From Acidobacteriota bacterium (lineage in GTDB: Bacteria > Acidobacteriota > Blastocatellia > HR10), in NCBI GenBank assembly GCA_030550025.1, contig JAUQQC010000002.1, positions 130,356 through 194,355 on the forward strand: DNA of 64,000 bases. The letters are read 5' to 3'. Under the pieces are notes generated by a model, which saw nothing but the letters and a program-made list of their open reading frames with translations, was not told the origin of the DNA and did no database searches. Both the position numbers and the translations under genes were made by a program. How positions within the stretch are numbered: position 1 is the stretch's first letter; every line of letters begins with the position of its first letter. This document shows, in pieces, positions 46,265-58,731 of this stretch.

Positions 46265-48076
46265 TCATTCTTCTTCGCTCTCGATGAACTCGAGCAGAAG
46301 CGCGAACGGACCGAGCGGCGAACGGCTCTCGCTCCACAGCCCTTCCGGGCGAAGCGACGAGACGCGAAGGCTCGGTGGCCAGCGCGCGGCGAGACGGTGC
46401 ACGGCTTCCGCATCCGGAGCGCGGATCGTCAACGAGGACGCGCGCTCGATCCATTCGAGCGCGCGAAGGAAAGCGCGCGCCGTCTCTTGCTGCTCGAAGG
46501 TCACCGTGACCTCAAACCCCGTAATTGCCGACAGTCGAGCGCGCAGCGCCGAATCCTCTCCTACGGTCTCCCGTCGCTCACGTGCGAGAAGGACCTGCTC
46601 AATCTGCTTCGGATGACCGATGAGGAGATGCCCCTCCACGAAAGCGAACGCGCGCTCCGGATGCGCTTCGGAGGCGAAGAGCGAGATCCCGTGCACGGAG
46701 GTCTCGCGCACGCGCGCTCCCGTGTGCTTGAAGTGCTTCCCGATCAACGCGGCGAGCTTCGGCGCGTCTCGCACGGAGACGAGCAACAGAAGCGTCGGCT
46801 CTCCCGTGTCCACGACGGCGAGCGCTGATCCGAGCGCATCCGCGACCGTATCCTCCGGATCCCACCCGAGCGCCTGACGCATGCGCGCGAGCGCTCCCGT
46901 GAGGGCGAAGCGAAGCGGTTCGGGAAGCGACGCCACAAGCGTCTCTTCGAGCGCTGCGGCCAACGCCGGGGCATTCGTCCACCGATAGAGGGTGAAGTGG
47001 CGAATCCGTCTCGGGATGAGGCGAAGGATCGCGTCATCCGCCGGCGATGCGTTCGGACGAAGGATCGGATCGTAGCGCTTCACCCACTTCTGATCGAGAT
47101 CGAGAAGGTATCGGGTGACGACTTCGCCGTTGTCGAACTCGACGGCGAACGCGACGTTGAACGAAAAGGCCTTGAACGCCGCGCGCAGGACTTCCTGTTG
47201 GAGCGGAGGAGCGGCGACCGCGCGCGCTCCGAGGGCAAGCGCTTCACCGCTGGCCCATCCCCAGATGGGGCTCGAGCGCTCGCGCTCCCACCATCGGGAC
47301 GCGGATTCGCTTGAGACGCGTTCGACTACGCGGCGAAGTGCGCGCAACCGCGGATGTGCGTGCAGCGAGGGGCGACGTCCCTGAGCCGTCTCGATGATGG
47401 CGCGCAAGGTGTCCAAATGCGTCGCCACGATGAACGTCTTCGCGCACACGCTCCAGAAGAAGCCGTTCTCAGAGGCATGCGCGCGATAGCCAACGATCGG
47501 CATTCCCTCATAGGTGGTGCGCTCGATAGTGAACGTGCCGTAGGCGCGGCCAGCGAGCGCGAGCGCGTGCGTCTCGGCGAATCGGCGGAGCGCGTCCTCG
47601 GAACGCGCGGTTGTCCAGAGGAGCGCCAGATGAGGTCGAACGGTCTCCCCCTCCCAATCCATCCCCGTGACCAGAAGCGCCATCGGGGAGCGCGCGAGCC
47701 CCCCCCATTCCCACAGCTCCTGCGGGAGTCGCTCCGAGAGCGCGCTCCACCATGGGACATCGAGCAGAAGTTCGTTCACCGCGCGCGTCGAGCGTAGGCC
47801 TTCGAATACCCGTAGGGGATCGCGCACTTCGAGATAGAAGAGCGCCGTTTGCGGCGCCAGCTCGCTCGGCGCGCGCCGCGGGGGGAACGCGCCGTGGAAG
47901 AGGACCCCCCCGACTCCGGCGAGAAGGAGAACAAGTAGGGCGATCTTTCGGCTAGGAGAGAGACGAACGCGACCCCTCGGGCGATCCGCGGTCTCCTCAC
48001 CAGTGCGTTCCTCAGGCGCGCGTCCCCGCGCAAAGAGCCTTCGGAGCGCATCGAGGATCGCCCCTGCGCGGGCCAT
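46265..48076 (-). CDS. DUF3352-like membrane-anchored protein
   Basis: About 603 residues: a charged cytoplasmic N-terminus (about 45 residues), one signal-anchor helix (KIALLVLLLAGVGGVLF), then a large extracytoplasmic region starting APQTALFYLEVRDPLRVFE, with alternating alpha/beta segments such as LLVTGMDWEGETVRPHLALL and ALAVVDTGEPTLLLLVSV. The arrangement resembles DUF3352 family proteins, whose function is unknown. No catalytic motif is evident. I use ATG 48076 with AAGGGG upstream; a GTG at 48109 is possible. It shares a divergent promoter region with the glutaredoxin-like gene. Confidence 0.7.
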   Translation of the reverse strand: MARAGAILDALRRLFARGRAPEERTGEETADRPRGRVRLSPSRKIALLVLLLAGVGGVLFHGAFPPRRAPSELAPQTALFYLEVRDPLRVFEGLRSTRAVNELLLDVPWWSALSERLPQELWEWGGLARSPMALLVTGMDWEGETVRPHLALLWTTARSEDALRRFAETHALALAGRAYGTFTIERTTYEGMPIVGYRAHASENGFFWSVCAKTFIVATHLDTLRAIIETAQGRRPSLHAHPRLRALRRVVERVSSESASRWWERERSSPIWGWASGEALALGARAVAAPPLQQEVLRAAFKAFSFNVAFAVEFDNGEVVTRYLLDLDQKWVKRYDPILRPNASPADDAILRLIPRRIRHFTLYRWTNAPALAAALEETLVASLPEPLRFALTGALARMRQALGWDPEDTVADALGSALAVVDTGEPTLLLLVSVRDAPKLAALIGKHFKHTGARVRETSVHGISLFASEAHPERAFAFVEGHLLIGHPKQIEQVLLARERRETVGEDSALRARLSAITGFEVTVTFEQQETARAFLRALEWIERASSLTIRAPDAEAVHRLAARWPPSLRVSSLRPEGLWSESRSPLGPFALLLEFIESEEE

Positions 48077-48096
48077 CGCCCCTTTTGTGCCCCCCG

Positions 48097-48125
48097 TTGA
48101 TTTCTCCACGTCCGCTCGTTATTAT
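48097..48125 (+). promoter_or_regulatory. Promoter for the glutaredoxin-like operon
   Basis: TTGATT (48097-48102) and TATTAT (48120-48125, 5 of 6) are spaced by exactly 17 bp. Transcription would begin near 48132, about 30 bases before ATG 48163. Confidence 0.6.
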
Positions 48126-50528: not shown

Positions 50529-50771
50529 ATGAGGAAGTGGCAGTATAAGACGCTGGATTGGGGCGAGCTGAGAAAGCTCGGGGCCATCGTGACGGGAAAG
50601 GATTTCGTGGATGAGAATGTGGATGCGGGATTGAATAAGCTGGGTGAGGAGGGGTGGGAACTGGTTGGCGTGTACGTGGATGGGTTCGTCGTCCATCGCT
50701 CGCAAAAGAGCATAGATATTGTCTCAATCAGCCGGTACGTCAAGTTCACCTTCAAACGGCCCATCGAATGA
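50529..50771 (+). CDS. Small DUF4177-like protein
   Basis: 80 residues. KWQYKTLDWGEL at the N-terminus and LNKLGEEGWELVGVYVDGFV match the DUF4177 layout, which ends with a strand such as VKFTFKRP. The family is of unknown function. A long purine-rich stretch with GGAGG and AGGAG precedes the ATG. GC content is somewhat lower than in neighbours. No partner is apparent. Confidence 0.72.
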   Translation: MRKWQYKTLDWGELRKLGAIVTGKDFVDENVDAGLNKLGEEGWELVGVYVDGFVVHRSQKSIDIVSISRYVKFTFKRPIE

Positions 50772-50872: not shown

Positions 50873-51691
50873 ATGCCGTTCGTTCGTGTTCCTGATGGGG
50901 AACTCTATTATCACCGTGTGGGGGGAGGGCCGCCTCTGATCCTTATCAACGATTGGCCGTTCTCCCATCGGTATTGGGAGCCGTTGGCCGATCGGTTGGC
51001 GTGTTCCTATGATGTCATCGCGTTCGATCCGCGCGGCCTCGGACGCAGCCGATCGTTCGCCGCCGCCGCCCCCTATGACGTCGAGGCTCATGCCGAGGAT
51101 GTACACGAACTGATCGTGGCGCTCGGCCTGGGCGAGGTGCACGTGATCGCGCATGCGCTCGGTGCGATCCCGGCGGCGCTGTGTCTTCAGCTCCATCCGC
51201 AGGATGTGCGCACGCTGACCCTTCTCAATCCGATCTTGGGGCCGGTGCCCTCTCCGCGCGTGGAGAGATACGTCGCATCGGCGCAGCTTCTGCTGCTGCT
51301 GCGGCAACTCGCCGCCGTGCCGCTTGTTCGCTCTCTCCTCTTTCGACGATATGCCCTTGGTCGGCTTCCGAAGGCATATCAACGCATCCTCGCCGAGGAT
51401 CTCCTTCAGGTGAATGTACGGGCCGCTTGGGAACTGGTGCATTCGGCGACGGAGGACACCACCCTGCGTCAATTCTGCGCCGCCCTCTTCGGATGGGCGC
51501 GCCCCATTCTGCTTGTGGCCTGTCGTCAAGATGGTTGGGCATCGGTCGAGACGGCGCGTTGGCTCTTCGAGCGGATTCACGCCGGACGGCTCGTGACGAT
51601 GGCCTCTCCGGCTCATTTCCCCATGCTCGAAGCCCCGGAGACATTGTGCGACGTGCTCATCGAGTTTTACAAAAAGACCGGCGCGCGATAA
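50873..51691 (+). CDS. Alpha/beta-hydrolase-fold protein without the nucleophile Ser
   Basis: 272 residues with the hydrolase fold: IAFDPRGLGRSRSFA, the elbow VIAHALGAIPAAL and AHFPMLEAPETL near the end. At the nucleophile elbow, where GxSxG is expected, the sequence is A-H-A-L-G, so the nucleophile Ser is replaced by Ala95. Asp220 (CRQDGWAS) and His248 remain. The usual HG oxyanion pair before W is also ND (LINDWPFSH). It is probably not a normal hydrolase: it could bind ligand or work by another mechanism. The start is ATG 50873, with GGGGGATCGG upstream. The degenerate NtrC-like gene follows. Confidence 0.85.
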   Translation: MPFVRVPDGELYYHRVGGGPPLILINDWPFSHRYWEPLADRLACSYDVIAFDPRGLGRSRSFAAAAPYDVEAHAEDVHELIVALGLGEVHVIAHALGAIPAALCLQLHPQDVRTLTLLNPILGPVPSPRVERYVASAQLLLLLRQLAAVPLVRSLLFRRYALGRLPKAYQRILAEDLLQVNVRAAWELVHSATEDTTLRQFCAALFGWARPILLVACRQDGWASVETARWLFERIHAGRLVTMASPAHFPMLEAPETLCDVLIEFYKKTGAR

Positions 51692-51800
51692 ACTCTCTTG
51701 ATAGTGCGAAGGGATGAACCATTGCGCGGGGACACTTTTGAAACTCATTCCCCTGCCGAGGCGTAATGAGCCAGTGGAGACTGAATGCGGGAGGATGACG

Positions 51801-53234
51801 ATGTCGGATGAACGGATCTGCATGAGCGTCGCGCCGGTCGAGGTCTCCCGTCGGGTCCGAGAGATGTCGGTCTTGGTCGTCGCGGGGACGGCGAGTCGTC
51901 AGGCCGAACTCGGACACGTGATCGAGCGGCTCGGGTGCCGGGTGACGACGGCCGATTTCTTGCAGTTGGAGAGCTTGCCCGTCGAAGGCAAGGCGTTTCA
52001 ACTCGTCGTTGTGGATGTGGAGCGAGATCTCTCGCCTCTTGGCGGAGCGCTCGCGCGGATCGAGCCGCAGAAGATCATCGCTCTCATTCCCGAAGGGATG
52101 CGGGAGCAGGAGGCGTGGATCCTTGGGCTGACCTTCGGTCGCTATGTGCTCAAGCCGGTCCATCCCGAGGAACTGCTGCAGGCCGTGCGCGATCGGTTGG
52201 AGCTTGTGGCCCTGCAGGAGACGACGACCCGCTTGAGCGACGAGCTGCGCGCGCGGTATCGCCTGGAGAACATCATTGGGATCAGTCGAGGGGCGGAGAC
52301 GCGTCGTGCGTTCGTCCGCACTTTCGCGAGCGTACGGCATCCGCTCTTCCTATCTGGGGAGCGCGGCGTCGGCAAACAGATGCTCGCGCAGACGGTGCAT
52401 TACAGTGGCCCGTGGGCGCTGGCGCCATTTGTTCTCGTGGACACGGCGCGTGTGCCGGCGAGCGCGCTCTCCGGTTTGCTCTTCGGCGATTCGGGATGGA
52501 TCGAGGGGGAGATCGAGCCGATCGGTCGTGGAGTGACGTCGCTGCTTGGCGCGGGGACGGTTTACATCACAGAGGTATCGCTCGTTCCTCTTCCGCTCCA
52601 GTATCGTCTCGCGGCCTTCCTTCGCCAGGGGCAAGCTGCTGAGGCCGAAGATGTCTCTGCGGGGCCTCGCTTCATCTTCGGTAGCCAGTGGACGCCGGAG
52701 CAACTGCGGCGGAAGGGGTTGCTCGTCGAGGATCTCTATCAACTGGTGCGGGAGGCACACCTGGCGATCGAGCCGTTGCGCGCTCGCCCGGAAGACATTC
52801 CCTATTTCGTGGACTATTTCTTGGAGCGCATCTGCCAGCGCCAGCAGAAGGAGAAGCGCGTGCTGACCGACGACGCGCTTCAGGCGCTGGCGCGCTACGC
52901 CTGGCCGGAGAACGTAGATGAGCTGCAGCGCGTGTTGGAAATCGCCGTGCGTCAGACGGCCCCGTCACCCATTGACGTCACGCATCTGCCGGAGCCAATC
53001 GGACGTCCGGCACCTCGCGTTCCCAAGATTCCCTTCCCGGAGGAAGGGATCGACTTCTACGAGCTGGTGGAGGAGTTCGAGCGCGGGTTGATCGTGGAGG
53101 CGCTGCGGCGGACTGGAGGGAATCAGCGTCGCGCGGCGCAACTGCTTCGCTTGAAGGAGACGACGTTGGCCGCCATGCGGCGACGTTTGAACGTCAAGCC
53201 CGATCGGGTTCGAAGCTTCCGTGACGAGGTATGA
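51801..53234 (+). CDS. Degenerate NtrC-family protein (altered receiver and AAA+ domains)
   Basis: 477 residues in NtrC order: receiver (about 22-135), AAA+ (about 155-385), Fis-type HTH at the end (TGGNQRRAAQLLRLKETT). The receiver keeps Asp in LVVVDVERD and Lys in YVLKPVHPEEL, but lacks the acidic pair after the first strand (VVAGTASR). The AAA+ part keeps Walker A (GERGVGK, near 186), loses the sigma-54 contact motif GAFTGA (LLFGDSGWIEGE instead) and has ITEVS at Walker B, where LDE is usual. It therefore should not activate sigma-54 in the standard way. ATG 51801 has GGGAGG upstream. Its stop overlaps the TonB-like start by four bases. Confidence 0.87.
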   Translation: MSDERICMSVAPVEVSRRVREMSVLVVAGTASRQAELGHVIERLGCRVTTADFLQLESLPVEGKAFQLVVVDVERDLSPLGGALARIEPQKIIALIPEGMREQEAWILGLTFGRYVLKPVHPEELLQAVRDRLELVALQETTTRLSDELRARYRLENIIGISRGAETRRAFVRTFASVRHPLFLSGERGVGKQMLAQTVHYSGPWALAPFVLVDTARVPASALSGLLFGDSGWIEGEIEPIGRGVTSLLGAGTVYITEVSLVPLPLQYRLAAFLRQGQAAEAEDVSAGPRFIFGSQWTPEQLRRKGLLVEDLYQLVREAHLAIEPLRARPEDIPYFVDYFLERICQRQQKEKRVLTDDALQALARYAWPENVDELQRVLEIAVRQTAPSPIDVTHLPEPIGRPAPRVPKIPFPEEGIDFYELVEEFERGLIVEALRRTGGNQRRAAQLLRLKETTLAAMRRRLNVKPDRVRSFRDEV

Positions 53235-54226
53235 GGCGAGAGAGCTCTCGTGATCTTCGGAGAGCCTTCGAGGCGGAGTGCGCTCTGGGTGAGTTCCCGT
53301 GTCTGTTGGAACAGCGCATTCGGCCAGATCGGCGGTACATACGGATCGGCATCGCGCTGACGGTGCTGCTGCATGGCTCGCTCTTCGGCTATACCCTCTA
53401 TGATTCGTATCGCGCGCTCTCATCCTGGAGGAGTTTGATCGGGTTGGCGATCGTGAGCGAGCCGGGGGATCGGCATGGGCTGCAGTTGTCGGATCGCGCG
53501 GTGCTTATCGCCCCGCTCTATTATCCCCCTGGACTTCTTGCTTCGTCCCCGGAGGAGGAGGCGAGGCGCCGTGCGGAGGAACGGCGGCGGCGTCAGGAGG
53601 CCGTGCGCCGCTTGCGCGAACACTTGGAGCAGATGGCGCGAGCGCAGGAGGAGGTGTCCAATCTGCCGAAGACCTGGGAGGACCTGGAACAACGGGTCAA
53701 GGACGAGGCACGGAAGCTGAACATCGGGCCGATCCGCGACGCCATCATCGAAATCTACCGCGCCAGGCAGGAGGGGCGCCTCACGTTCCAAGATATTAGT
53801 GTCGCCGTCTCCTTCCGCGTGCAGAAGGATGGCGCGCTCACGGACATCGCGCTTGTGGAACCTTCCGGCCTTCCGCCGGTGGATGCAGCCGCGTTGATGA
53901 TCGTCGAGGAAGCGAGCCGCGCGCGTATCCTGGCGCCACTGGTGACCGCTCAATCCGTGACCGTGAAGCTCGTCATCGCCGAGACGACCGAGTTGCGTTT
54001 CATCATCGTCTCGCCCTCGGAGGCGGGAGCCGCTCAGCTCGTCAGCCAGCTGAACGGATTACTCCTGCTCGCGCGCTTGAACGCAGGGAAACTGGATCCC
54101 CAAGCGGCGGCGATCCTCTCGCGGCTGAGCATCACGCAAGAGGGTCGCAACATCATCGCCAGTGTGAAGATCCCTCGCGCTGAGGCGGCGGAGATGTTCA
54201 AGAGCCGCATCGGGTCCGAAGAGTGA
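53231..54226 (+). CDS. TonB-like protein with coiled coil
   Basis: 331 residues: a cytoplasmic N-terminus of about 36 residues, a single helix (YIRIGIALTVLLHGSLFGY), a long charged coiled-coil (about 105-160; EEEARRRAEERRRRQEAV), and then a TonB/TolA-like beta region (SVAVSFRVQKDGALTDIAL, then EPSGLPPVDAAALMIV). It could transmit force or signal across the periplasm. It overlaps the degenerate NtrC-like gene (ATGA), so the two are co-translated, and is followed by tnaA. No ExbB/ExbD genes are in the window. Confidence 0.75.
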   Translation: MRRESSRDLRRAFEAECALGEFPCLLEQRIRPDRRYIRIGIALTVLLHGSLFGYTLYDSYRALSSWRSLIGLAIVSEPGDRHGLQLSDRAVLIAPLYYPPGLLASSPEEEARRRAEERRRRQEAVRRLREHLEQMARAQEEVSNLPKTWEDLEQRVKDEARKLNIGPIRDAIIEIYRARQEGRLTFQDISVAVSFRVQKDGALTDIALVEPSGLPPVDAAALMIVEEASRARILAPLVTAQSVTVKLVIAETTELRFIIVSPSEAGAAQLVSQLNGLLLLARLNAGKLDPQAAAILSRLSITQEGRNIIASVKIPRAEAAEMFKSRIGSEE

Positions 54227-54290: not shown

Positions 54291-55664
54291 ATGAAGACTA
54301 TCATCGAACCGTTTCGGATCAAGGTCGTCGAGCCCATCCGCATGACGACGCGCGAGGAGCGCGAGCGGTATCTGCGCGAGGCCGGCTACAATCTCTTCCT
54401 GATCAAGTCCGAGCACGTCATCATAGACCTTTTGACCGACAGCGGCACGGCGGCCATGAGTTCCGAGCAGTGGGCGGCCATGATGCGGGGCGATGAGTCG
54501 TATGCCGGGAGCGCGAGCTTCTATCGCTTCGAGGCCGTCGTGCGTGAGATCTTCGGATTCAAGCATGTCATCCCCACGCATCAAGGGCGGGCGGCCGAGC
54601 GCATCCTCTTCTCGATCCTGTGCCGGCCCGGGCACATCGTGCCGAGCAATACGCATTTCGACACGACGCGGGCGAACATCGAATACGTCGGGGCTGAGGC
54701 CGTGGATCTGCCGATCCCCGAGTTCTACAAGCCCTCGGTCTATCACCCTTTCAAGGGGAACATGGACACGGAGGCCTTACGCGCGTTGATTCGGCGCGTC
54801 GGGCCAGAGCGCATTCCGCTGGTCATGCTCACGGTGACGAACAATTCCGGCGGGGGACAACCCGTCTCCATGGCCAATATCCGCGAGGTGAAAGCCATCT
54901 GCGCCGAGTACGGCATTCCCCTCTATCTGGACGCTTGCCGCTTCGCTGAGAACGCCTACTTCATCAAGCTGCGCGAGGAGGGATATGCCGAGAAGTCGGT
55001 TCGGGAGATCGCGCGCGAGATGTTCTCCTATGCGGACGGATGCACGATGTCAGCGAAAAAGGATGGGCTGGCCAACATCGGCGGGTTCCTCTGCACGAAC
55101 GACGATCGGCTGGCACAGCAGGAGAAGAATCTGCTCATTCTGACCGAGGGCTTTCCCACCTACGGGGGCTTAGCCGGCCGCGATCTGGAGGCGATCGCCG
55201 TGGGATTGCAGGAGGTGTTGGACGAAGATTATTTGCAATACCGCTTCGCCTCGACGCGCTACTTGGGACGGCACATCGCCGAGGCCGGCGTTCCGATCGT
55301 GCAACCTCCAGGTGGCCATGCCATCTATATTGACGCCGGGGCGATGCTCCCGCACATCCCCCCCCTGCAATACCCCGCGCAAGCGCTCGCTGTTGAACTC
55401 TACCGCGAAGCCGGGATTCGTTCGGTCGAGATCGGTTCGGTCATGTTCGGCAAGCGAGATCCGCAGACGGGGGAGGAGATCCCGGCGCCGATGGAGTTGG
55501 TGCGGCTGGCGATCCCTCGCCGCGTCTACACGCAGAGTCATATCGACTACGTGATCGAGGCGATCCTGGAGGTCTATAAGCGGCGCGAGACGATTCGCGG
55601 CTATCGCATCGTGTGGCAAGCACCGTTTCTGCGCCATTTCACGGCCCGTTTTGAGCCGCTCTGA
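54291..55664 (+). CDS. tnaA: Tryptophanase (tryptophan indole-lyase)
   Basis: 457 residues of the beta-eliminating PLP lyase family. Lys257 (SAKKDGLANIGG) should bind PLP. Residues that separate tryptophanase from tyrosine phenol-lyase all side with tryptophanase: Asp124 (FDTTR; Thr in phenol-lyases), Ile381 (SVEIGS; Arg in phenol-lyases) and His449 (LRHFTARF; Phe in phenol-lyases). It cleaves Trp to indole, pyruvate and ammonia. The start is ATG 54291, with GAAGGAGCG upstream. No tnaC leader peptide or tnaB permease is next to it. Confidence 0.9.
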   Translation: MKTIIEPFRIKVVEPIRMTTREERERYLREAGYNLFLIKSEHVIIDLLTDSGTAAMSSEQWAAMMRGDESYAGSASFYRFEAVVREIFGFKHVIPTHQGRAAERILFSILCRPGHIVPSNTHFDTTRANIEYVGAEAVDLPIPEFYKPSVYHPFKGNMDTEALRALIRRVGPERIPLVMLTVTNNSGGGQPVSMANIREVKAICAEYGIPLYLDACRFAENAYFIKLREEGYAEKSVREIAREMFSYADGCTMSAKKDGLANIGGFLCTNDDRLAQQEKNLLILTEGFPTYGGLAGRDLEAIAVGLQEVLDEDYLQYRFASTRYLGRHIAEAGVPIVQPPGGHAIYIDAGAMLPHIPPLQYPAQALAVELYREAGIRSVEIGSVMFGKRDPQTGEEIPAPMELVRLAIPRRVYTQSHIDYVIEAILEVYKRRETIRGYRIVWQAPFLRHFTARFEPL

Positions 55665-55676
55665 AGCGGGCTTCAG
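55661..55676. terminator. Palindromic hairpin at the convergent tnaA/VWFA junction
   Basis: CTGAAG-CGGG-CTTCAG covers the stop codons of both convergent genes (55662-55664 and 55673-55675). It can fold on either strand and would serve both directions. There is no T-tract, so an intrinsic terminator is uncertain. Confidence 0.35.
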
Positions 55677-57517
55677 CGAGCGAAGTATCCGGGGCGCGTG
55701 CGCACGCGCACGCCAGGACGAGCGACCCGCACCTCGATCCGTCGCCAGCTCCCATCGCGTTCGGCGCGCGTCGGCGTGTAGGCGAGGCTGTAGATCGTGC
55801 GCAAATCGGCTGCGATCTGCTCGTAGATGCCTTCCAGTTGGCTCAGGCGTTCGATGCGGTAGAATCGTCCTCCGGAGAGATCTGCCAATTGACGCAGTTG
55901 CTCTTGGGCCACGCGCGTGCCCGCACGCACCTGTTCGCGTCCGGATTCGTCGAGCGCCGCCGCCAGCTCCGCCTCGTTCTCGATCATGATAGGATAGATC
56001 AAGGCATCCGATTGCACGACTCCGAGGACCAGGTCCTCGAATCGCAGGAAGGACCCCGGGCGTCGCAAGGGATCGGTCCAAAGCGGCGTGCCCCAATACG
56101 CCAGCGAGCTGTCGCGTCCGTCCGTCAACACGACGAGCGCATTGCGCTGTCCGCGGACCGGGCCGAGCACCTCGACGAGCGCGTAGCCGATGGCATCGTA
56201 CAAAGCCGTGCTTCCAAGTGGCGGCACGACAGCTTCAAGCGCGCGCAGGACCTGAGCGCGATCATGCGTGAGCGGAGCCACGACCTCCACATCCCGAGCG
56301 AATAAAAGTAGCGCGACCCGATCCTCCGCGCGCATCACCTCGAGGAAACGACGCGCTGCTTGCCGAAGCGTCTCGAACTGCCCGCGCATGCTCCCGCTCA
56401 CGTCCAGCAGAAGGACGAGGTTGAAGGGGCTCGTCTCGACGGCAAAGTGGCGAACCTCTTGTCGCACGCCATCCTCCAGGATGGTGAATTCGTTCGCCGC
56501 GAGTCCGCTGAGGACCTTCCCCTCGGCATCGGTGACGCTCAGCAGGAGATTCACCAACGGCGCTTCCAATCGAATGACGTCCTCTTCCTCGGCCGAGGCC
56601 GCGGGCCATGGCACCGGACCCGCCAGTTCGATGAGACGGAGCAAACGAGGTTCCAGCAGGCGCAACGCTTCGCCCAGAACGCTCTGCCGATTCTCGGCCA
56701 GGACGCGAGCGGCGCGCGTCATCGGCTGTGGCGGAAGCATGCCCAGGATCAGGCGATCGGGAGCTGTGGGCGGGCCGAGCTCCACCCATCCGTTGAGCGT
56801 GCGCACCTGGATGGAGAGACGACCCTGCCCCCGCTTCCCAGCAAGAATCGCCGGCGGAGGCGCAACGCTTGGCACGGAGGATCGAGGCAGGACCGGTCGT
56901 TCCACACGCGGCAGCGACGGGCCGGCATAGCGCACATACCCCTCGGTCCACACCAATTCCGCTCGAACGTCCTCGACGGGGACTCCGAGGATCACATCGC
57001 CGCTCAGCGTCTCTACGCGTACGGCGCGCGGCCGACCATGTACCTGCACGGTCCCCTCTTCCGCTTTCGCCTCGATGTGCAGACCCGGAGGGACGGTCAC
57101 ATAGACATCGAGCGCTTGCTCCGATTGGCGAGTCATGCAGCGCAAGCTCACGCGGCCTTTCCCCTCCTTCAAGCGCACCATGTCCTCCGTGATTGGGAGA
57201 TTGCTCTCGATTCGAAGCAGAATCCGATCAGGACCACCTTCGCGGATGAGGATGCGCCCGTGCGGGTTCTCGATCTTGAGTTCGCTCAATGAGGGGACAT
57301 CGAGGCGCTTCTCGAAGATGACCGGACGTGGAATCAACGCGCGAACGTCTGGGGATTGCTCACTCGCTTTCGCGGGGGGATTCAGTGGCCCCCCGCGAAA
57401 GCACTCCTTCCCTCCGAGAGGGCCGGCTACTCCGATCCCAATAAGGAGCCACGTCGTGAGGCCAAGGCGATGCCGAATGGTCGTCCGTCCTCCTTTTGGG
57501 AGAGCCGCCGTGCTCAC
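55673..57517 (-). CDS. VWFA-related acidobacterial secreted protein with beta-repeat N-domain (2)
   Basis: 614 residues by the GTG start at 57517. Layout: a hydrophobic leader (LGLTTWLLIGIGVAGPLGG), a beta-rich region (LKIENPHGRILIREGG, VRVETLSGDVILGVP), then a VWFA domain with MIDAS LLLDVSGSMRGQFE and VVLTDGRDSSL, and the family end YSLAYTPTR to RPGYFAR. AAAAGGAGG sits inside the frame (57489-57497), 10 bases before an ATT at 57478, the point from which the leader would look like a normal signal peptide. The true start may therefore be that ATT. The GTG overlaps the stop of the third VWFA gene. Confidence 0.88.
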   Translation of the reverse strand: MSTAALPKGGRTTIRHRLGLTTWLLIGIGVAGPLGGKECFRGGPLNPPAKASEQSPDVRALIPRPVIFEKRLDVPSLSELKIENPHGRILIREGGPDRILLRIESNLPITEDMVRLKEGKGRVSLRCMTRQSEQALDVYVTVPPGLHIEAKAEEGTVQVHGRPRAVRVETLSGDVILGVPVEDVRAELVWTEGYVRYAGPSLPRVERPVLPRSSVPSVAPPPAILAGKRGQGRLSIQVRTLNGWVELGPPTAPDRLILGMLPPQPMTRAARVLAENRQSVLGEALRLLEPRLLRLIELAGPVPWPAASAEEEDVIRLEAPLVNLLLSVTDAEGKVLSGLAANEFTILEDGVRQEVRHFAVETSPFNLVLLLDVSGSMRGQFETLRQAARRFLEVMRAEDRVALLLFARDVEVVAPLTHDRAQVLRALEAVVPPLGSTALYDAIGYALVEVLGPVRGQRNALVVLTDGRDSSLAYWGTPLWTDPLRRPGSFLRFEDLVLGVVQSDALIYPIMIENEAELAAALDESGREQVRAGTRVAQEQLRQLADLSGGRFYRIERLSQLEGIYEQIAADLRTIYSLAYTPTRAERDGSWRRIEVRVARPGVRVRTRPGYFAR

Positions 57518-58608
57518 GGCTGACCCACCGGAGCGTAATAGCCGCGCCGAGCATGGACCTTGAACTTCTTACCCCCCTCGCGAGCAACCTCGATCTTGAT
57601 GCGCCGCCATTTCCCATCGCGGCTCGTGTTCGAGGAGATGTAGCCGATATTGTACTGCTGGCGCAACTCGCGGGCGATCGTCGCGCACACGGCTTCCAAG
57701 AGCGACGCCCCCATGACGGTGAAGTGACGGCCTCCGGTCAGCTTCGAGAGCTGTTGCAGGATGGCGATCCCCTGCTGCTCGAAGTAGGTGTTGTAGAGCG
57801 TCGGGTCGGGCGTCCCGATCGTGTAGATCTGCACGTCGGATTCCTTCAGCAGGCGGGAGAGCGCGCCGTAGCTGTACCGCGAGCTGTTGTCCTGCCCATC
57901 GCTGATGATCAGAAGCACGCGCTTGCCATGTCGGGCATGACGCAGCTTCAGCACGCCTTCGTAGACGGCATCGAAGAGCGCCGTTCGCCCTTGCGCGCGA
58001 AGGAACGGGAGATACGTGAGCAAAACCTCTCCGTCAGTGAAATCCGCCAAGAGCATCACCTGCTTGTTGAAGGCGATGGCGAAGAACTCGTCCTGCGGAT
58101 TGCTCCACTCGATGAAGCGACGCACGGCTTCGCGCAGGCGGGCGATCTTGCTCTTCATGCTGCCAGAGATGTCCAGGATCAACCCCACGCTGATCGGGAT
58201 GTCATCGGTGCTGAAGAACTTGACCTGCTGTGGGACATCGTCCTCGTAGACGGTGAAGTGATCCGATCTCAATCCCGTGACGAAGCGCCCCAGTTGATCG
58301 GTCACGCTGATGGAGAGCAGGACCAATTCCGACTTGAGCCGGATGAACTGCTCCTGCAGGGATTGATCCGTGGCGGCCGTCGTCCGCGTGACTTGTCCCG
58401 ATGCGTTCTGCGGTTCGGTCGGGGTGCCTTCCGGAGTCTCCGAACGATATGGCCTCGTCACGAATTGGTCGTCCGATGTCGGGGCTGCCAGTGGCCGCAT
58501 CGGGGAAGGCCCAAACGGAAGGAGCAGAAGCCCCACCGATACGTATGCCAGCACCCGCCATCGTCGGAGCGTGAGGAACGGAGATATTCTCCTGGTCCTT
58601 GGGCTCAT
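57514..58608 (-). CDS. VWFA-related acidobacterial secreted protein (3), short form
   Basis: 364 residues: a twin-Arg/basic leader with helix VLAYVSVGLLLLPFG, a short linker, and a VWFA domain with MIDAS LILDISGSMKSKIA plus IISDGQDNSSRYS, ending with IGYISSNTSRDGKW and RGYYAP. It lacks the beta-repeat N-terminal domain of the other two. The start is ATG 58608, preceded by AAGGAGGG; a longer frame runs to 58710 across a promoter. Its stop overlaps the start of the second VWFA gene, so they are one transcription unit. Confidence 0.9.
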   Translation of the reverse strand: MSPRTRRISPFLTLRRWRVLAYVSVGLLLLPFGPSPMRPLAAPTSDDQFVTRPYRSETPEGTPTEPQNASGQVTRTTAATDQSLQEQFIRLKSELVLLSISVTDQLGRFVTGLRSDHFTVYEDDVPQQVKFFSTDDIPISVGLILDISGSMKSKIARLREAVRRFIEWSNPQDEFFAIAFNKQVMLLADFTDGEVLLTYLPFLRAQGRTALFDAVYEGVLKLRHARHGKRVLLIISDGQDNSSRYSYGALSRLLKESDVQIYTIGTPDPTLYNTYFEQQGIAILQQLSKLTGGRHFTVMGASLLEAVCATIARELRQQYNIGYISSNTSRDGKWRRIKIEVAREGGKKFKVHARRGYYAPVGQP

Positions 58609-58669
58609 CGTTCCCTCCTTAGTTTTCGGTCTTCCCGTTCTCAGAACCCTGTTCCGGCGCGGACTCCTA

Positions 58670-58698
58670 ATGATAAAGACAATCGCGAGCCAAGGCAA
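58670..58698 (-). promoter_or_regulatory. Promoter for the VWFA gene pair
   Basis: On the minus strand TTGCCT (58698-58693) and TATCAT (58675-58670, 5 of 6) are spaced by exactly 17 bp. The transcript would have a leader of about 55 bases before ATG 58608. Confidence 0.55.
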
Positions 58699-58731
58699 CG
58701 GAATTTTCACTTCACACCGCTAGGACCAGCC

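Follow-up and report, generated by a model that had tools for sequence, protein, structure and literature searches.

The gene at 51801-53234 (+ strand) of the 64,000-nucleotide stretch of DNA analysed here (the window) encodes a 477-aa NtrC-like regulator built from a pseudo-receiver, a degenerate AAA+ domain and a Fis-type helix-turn-helix (HTH). By analogy with known GAFTGA-less regulators, it is probably a sigma-54-independent, non-hydrolysing, DNA-binding descendant of an NtrC-type activator. In bEBPs, ATP hydrolysis and the remodelling of sigma-54 polymerase are carried out through three elements, the GAFTGA loop, the Walker B motif and the arginine fingers (PMC7175178); because all three are missing here, the regulator almost certainly cannot act as a standard sigma-54 activator. 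An initial annotation of the window had suggested sigma-54 independence, which is now very probable; the loss of GAFTGA proved to be fixed in every orthologue found.

Architecture of the gene pair

The regulator gene and the gene that follows it overlap stop-to-start, as first annotated, with an ATGA common to the end of one and the start of the other. The second gene (53231-54226, +) encodes a 331-aa TonB/TolA-like envelope protein. The regulator start at 51801 is backed by a GGGAGG located 6 bases 5′ of its ATG and by the N-termini of congeners; a longer start at 51714 is disfavoured, since a candidate promoter (described below) would fall inside the gene and GGGAGG precedes 51801. Pfam assigns Sigma54_activat, AAA_lid_14 and HTH_8 (31.6 bits, cutoff 22) to the regulator, with a Sigma54_activat score of about 55-59 bits (55.5 by Pfam). 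Twelve further Sigma54_activat proteins encoded in the same genome, which also carries rpoN, score 221-256 bits, indicating that the weak match is a property of the regulator itself.

A dismantled AAA+ motor

We read the motifs of the AAA+ domain in alignments that included orthologues as well as canonical activators of this genome and of the phylum. These alignments bore out the initial description of a protein that has lost GAFTGA and the canonical Walker B while keeping Walker A and an HTH. The GAFTGA position is occupied by GDSGWIEGEIEP, within a loop 1 region (LLFGDSGWIEGEIEPIGRGVT; 52476-52538, +) that is also the weakest-confidence stretch of the AAA+ domain in the AlphaFold model, at about 55 pLDDT. 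Walker A is kept as GERGVGKQ (52356-52379, +), and at the Walker B position (GTVYITEV; 52554-52577, +) FLDE has become YITE, with Thr in place of Asp and the Glu retained. Three losses go beyond the earlier description: both finger arginines are gone from the arginine-finger segment LLVEDLYQLVR (52719-52751, +), where FREDLYYR has become LVEDLYQL; the sensor II arginine is replaced by Asp in WPENVDELQ (52902-52928, +; NVREL to NVDEL); and sensor I reads GSQ instead of ATN. The absence of GAFTGA, the Walker B Asp, both arginine fingers and the sensor II Arg is common to 7/7 full-length proteins, in which the Walker B site reads YITE, YLTD or YISE and Walker A conforms to GERGxGK. The best conserved part of the regulator is the Fis-type HTH (53100-53189, +), recognized by Pfam HTH_8.

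The receiver-like domain (residues about 22-132; 51864-52196, +), delimited by alignment and model, is also altered. VAGT stands for VDDE in alignments, in agreement with the initial report of a missing acidic pocket, and the switch Thr is lost too; two residues remain, the Asp at the phospho-acceptor position (VVVD) and the Lys of beta-5 (LKP), and Pfam Response_reg gave no match in the window protein. This Asp and Lys are kept throughout the window's genus and in G007, a genome of the sister family f3, and are replaced by Glu and Thr in G005. Because G007 has the receiver Thr, Asp and Lys in place and a weak Response_reg match (20.6 bits, under the cutoff of 30.2), receiver loss looks stepwise from these sequences. 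AlphaFold predicted a confident NtrC-type fold for the window protein (mean pLDDT 87), and the best PDB matches of the model were full-length Brucella NtrX entries.

A degenerate clade in Blastocatellia

Full-length orthologues were present in 6/6 sampled genomes of the window's family, spanning two genera, and in G007. A second branch, found in eight genomes of family f8, lacks both a receiver domain and GAFTGA, and its Walker A is without the lysine as well (GERGLRQE); several of these genomes are multi-copy, with three copies each in G014 and G030. A degenerate regulator was found in 15 genomes. When 297 genomes of the phylum were scanned, only remoter matches appeared outside these families, and the best of those that were read had intact motors. 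In a species-level genome collection, close members — Bacterium HR10 and HR08 among them — occurred only in Blastocatellia, Acidobacteria or unclassified records, and other GAFTGA-less matches were far more distant from the window protein. The degenerate clade was seen only in class Blastocatellia. A literature search returned no match for GAFTGA with Acidobacteria, nor for GAFTGA with sigma-54-independent.

In a joint tree, all degenerate rows grouped together (100/100), and their branches are long. Because long branches were grouped and either degenerate branch received low support when placed alone among canonical proteins, a single origin of both branches is favoured rather than established. 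Separately, four GAFTGA-less NtrC-like proteins from Bacillales (L219, L254, L256, L258) have an altered Walker B and are not close to the window protein; the first arginine-finger residue is kept in three of the four.

Among the f8 short-regulator copies examined (L081-L092), 9/12 adjoin genes of two clusters, which Pfam assigned, for those examples that were tested, to a histidine kinase and an OmpR-type regulator. The genes occur in one of two arrangements: the short regulator and the kinase diverge, or the short regulator and the OmpR regulator converge. No histidine kinase was found among the conserved flanking genes of the regulator in the window's family.

Gene neighbourhood and candidate regulatory sites

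As far as contigs extend, the gene order in the window's family is M28 peptidase, IDH, DUF4177 protein, hydrolase, regulator, TonB-like protein and tnaA. The DUF4177 protein (50529-50771, +) is an order-wide partner of the alpha/beta-hydrolase (50873-51691, +), and family f2 carries both without any regulator. In G007 the block from M28 through IDH, DUF4177 and hydrolase to the regulator is kept, and the TonB-like gene and tnaA lie elsewhere. The tryptophanase-like enzyme (tnaA; 54291-55664, +) is sparse in the class and located elsewhere in other families. Hydrolase-regulator adjacency extends over two families and TonB adjacency over one, and the steadier partner of the regulator is the upstream hydrolase with its DUF4177, IDH and M28 genes. 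Of the two flanking genes pointed out in the initial annotation, the upstream hydrolase held in both families with the full-length regulator, and the downstream tnaA in the window's own family only.

Two further features of this region were apparent. Two adjacent VWA-domain genes (55673-58710, −) lie 3′ of tnaA, in the same order across the family where the contig extends. On the other side, a 614-aa protein (46265-48109, −) adjoins two oligopeptide-permease-like genes, a position common to relatives; it had no Pfam match at E 0.01 and is possibly a substrate-binding protein.

A narrower form of our preferred reading (set out below) places the targets of the regulator within this neighbourhood: it would repress or activate the hydrolase block or tnaA locally, in response to an aromatic or indole-type ligand, much as TyrR does. 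We consider this unlikely. The downstream enzyme does align with tryptophanases, and carries tryptophanase-like residues at the positions of TPL Thr124 and Arg381. Moreover, TyrR, which likewise lacks GAFTGA, regulates aromatic amino acid genes at sigma-70 promoters (PMC3162934). However, tnaA adjoins the regulator only in the window's family, and no genus-wide operator came to light upstream of the regulator (51801), the hydrolase (50873) or tnaA (54291); the search for DNA-binding sites upstream of 50873 and 54291, proposed with the initial annotation, was therefore negative. TyrR and DhaR also have other input domains, with no known receiver-like domain, the TyrR input being ACT/PAS.

One inverted repeat, ACTCGCTC-N17-GAGCGAGT, matches perfectly in G003 and almost perfectly in G002 (alignment by eye); matching at only 5/8 in the window and poorly in G001, it was not accepted as an operator. 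A weak candidate sigma-70-type promoter, TTGAAA-N18-CGTAAT (51738-51767, +), was picked out in an alignment by eye and is mostly kept in the genus; a consensus scan did not report it.

A TonB-like protein with its own distribution

The TonB-like protein combines one N-terminal hydrophobic helix and a charged coiled coil, both recognized in the initial annotation, with a TonB/TolA-like C-terminal domain. Its TonB_C score is 20.6 bits against a curated cutoff of 24.6, and its TIGR01352 score 25.9 against 27.1; a profile search recovered TolA chains at E 5e-4 and TonB chains at 2e-3. Block pLDDT was about 72-94 in the C-terminal half, a fair to high confidence, and the model had no significant PDB fold match, the best TonB/TolA hit reaching E about 0.1. 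An extra alpha/beta segment lies C-terminal to the TonB_C-like part in the window protein and its homologues (L014-L042). Neither ExbB/ExbD nor TolQ/TolR occurred among the annotated neighbours of the gene.

The gene is single-copy in 39/58 Blastocatellia genomes sampled, absent or barely detectable in family f5, missing from a few further genomes, and nearly absent elsewhere in the phylum. Its neighbours vary, including an aldehyde dehydrogenase, a sigma factor, a TPR protein, LpxC and an atpI-like gene; in G007 (L049:106-2390) it lies directly 5′ of an atpI-like gene and an ATP synthase A gene, and in G028 (L054) an ATP synthase A gene is about 3 kb away.

The initial annotation had suggested that the pair may be an envelope-to-DNA switch; on such a reading the TonB-like protein would sense or transduce the state of the envelope and control the co-translated regulator. 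The ATGA overlap in the window speaks for such a dedicated switch, as does adjacency in 6/6 genomes of the family, across two genera. The overlap, however, is not kept in congeners and gives way to a 58-base gap in the sister genus. Those six genomes of one family are also the only ones in which the TonB-like gene adjoins the regulator: the two lie apart in 9 of the 15 genomes with a degenerate regulator, on different contigs in the eight f8 genomes having both, and the G007 regulator keeps its upstream block with the TonB-like gene elsewhere, beside the atpI-like gene. Separation in most genomes is the outcome that the initial annotation had named as refuting its reading, and no functional link between the two proteins emerged. 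Because the TonB-like gene is class-wide, mostly without a degenerate regulator, and adjacency is so confined, the switch is unsupported and we regard it as quite improbable. The TonB-like gene is instead an independent envelope gene of the class, and an operon neighbour of the regulator in one family only.

A maintained regulator

Across the whole gene, regulator dN/dS was 0.11-0.17 between the window and three congeners, with low dN in each domain; against the sister genus it was 0.20, at saturated dS. The HTH had the lowest dN of four segments in 3/4 comparisons, and the reading frame was open in 7/7 genomes with the full-length form. Since the AAA+ losses are common to 7/7 full-length proteins and dN/dS is this low, the regulator is a maintained protein under purifying selection, not a decaying gene. 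A pseudogene whose AAA+ motifs are vanishing because the protein is no longer needed would fit the many missing catalytic residues and a receiver eroding stepwise, from Thr, Asp and Lys in place in G007 to Glu and Thr for Asp and Lys in G005. We nevertheless dropped this reading as very improbable on the strength of dN/dS and open frames; in addition, the same losses occur in two families and in the multi-copy branch of a third, and the HTH is the least changed part of the protein. It is more improbable still that the regulator serves sigma-54 transcription in trans, as a regulatory subunit mixed with canonical activators, for although the AAA+ fold is kept and the genome encodes 12 other activators, the R-finger and sensor segments, which work between subunits, have changed.

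Proposed mode of action

Our preferred reading, of a non-hydrolysing DNA-binding regulator, is that an ancestral sigma-54 activator with NtrC architecture gave rise to the protein, which has abandoned that role. It is predicted to bind DNA via the Fis-type HTH in dimeric or small oligomeric form, perhaps with ATP bound and not hydrolysed, although ATP binding may have been lost too. Its control of sigma-70-type promoters would work through recruitment or blocking rather than through remodelling of sigma-54 polymerase, and its receiver-like domain would be a module for packing or ligand sensing instead of an ordinary phospho-switch. In this scheme we infer the lack of hydrolysis, the use of sigma-70, the oligomeric state and any particular targets, which could be anywhere in the genome. 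More tentatively, both branches may belong to a Blastocatellia-specific, non-hydrolysing NtrC-derived family in which the entire AAA+ motor now serves as a scaffold for ligand sensing or dimerisation, comprising a pseudo-receiver branch and a branch that would act alongside histidine-kinase/OmpR pairs; we rate this as possible but doubtful.

The proteins form a graded natural series, from G007, with its largely recognisable receiver, through the window's genus to the branch without the Walker A lysine, which lets one ask which parts of a sigma-54 activator serve the motor only and which also serve DNA binding. They also bear on annotation practice, as the Sigma54_activat domain alone would miscall them as sigma-54 activators.

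Comparison with known systems

The TonB-like protein shares with TolA/TonB C-terminal domain proteins an N-terminal hydrophobic helix, a long charged linker and a short alpha/beta domain; unlike them, it falls under the Pfam and TIGR cutoffs and has the additional C-terminal alpha/beta segment.

By analogy, the regulator most likely works like Brucella NtrX, Rhodobacter capsulatus NtrC or VpsR, in a more degenerate form. The members of a set of GAFTGA-less regulators — R. capsulatus NtrC and HupR, Caulobacter NtrC, TyrR, DhaR and VpsR — either act at sigma-70 promoters or are assigned to them (PMC10274813, PMC3162934). Within this set, E. coli TyrR and DhaR resemble the window protein in their changed GAFTGA (PMC3162934), and R. 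capsulatus NtrC, Caulobacter NtrC and HupR resemble it as GAFTGA-less bEBPs (PMC10274813). R. capsulatus NtrC requires ATP binding but not hydrolysis, whereas Caulobacter NtrC requires both Walker motifs, of which Walker B is changed in the window gene; both proteins depend on aspartyl phosphorylation (PMC10274813), in contrast to the window gene, which has no kinase nearby. Vibrio cholerae VpsR (PDB 7v2b), another GAFTGA-less bEBP and one of the structural matches, is reported to function independently of phosphorylation and ATP (PMC10274813). The title of its PDB entry describes VpsR as a c-di-GMP binder. Sensing of c-di-GMP in the manner of FleQ was rejected for the window protein, as the residues that we take to be those used by FleQ are not kept in the alignment.

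Brucella abortus NtrX (PDB 5m7n/5m7o/5m7p) shares with the window protein the full succession of receiver, AAA+ domain and Fis-type HTH, together with the absence of GAFTGA. In alignment, Walker B (LYLDEV) and the two arginine fingers (FREDLFHRL) are intact in NtrX, whereas the window protein has lost them along with the receiver pocket.
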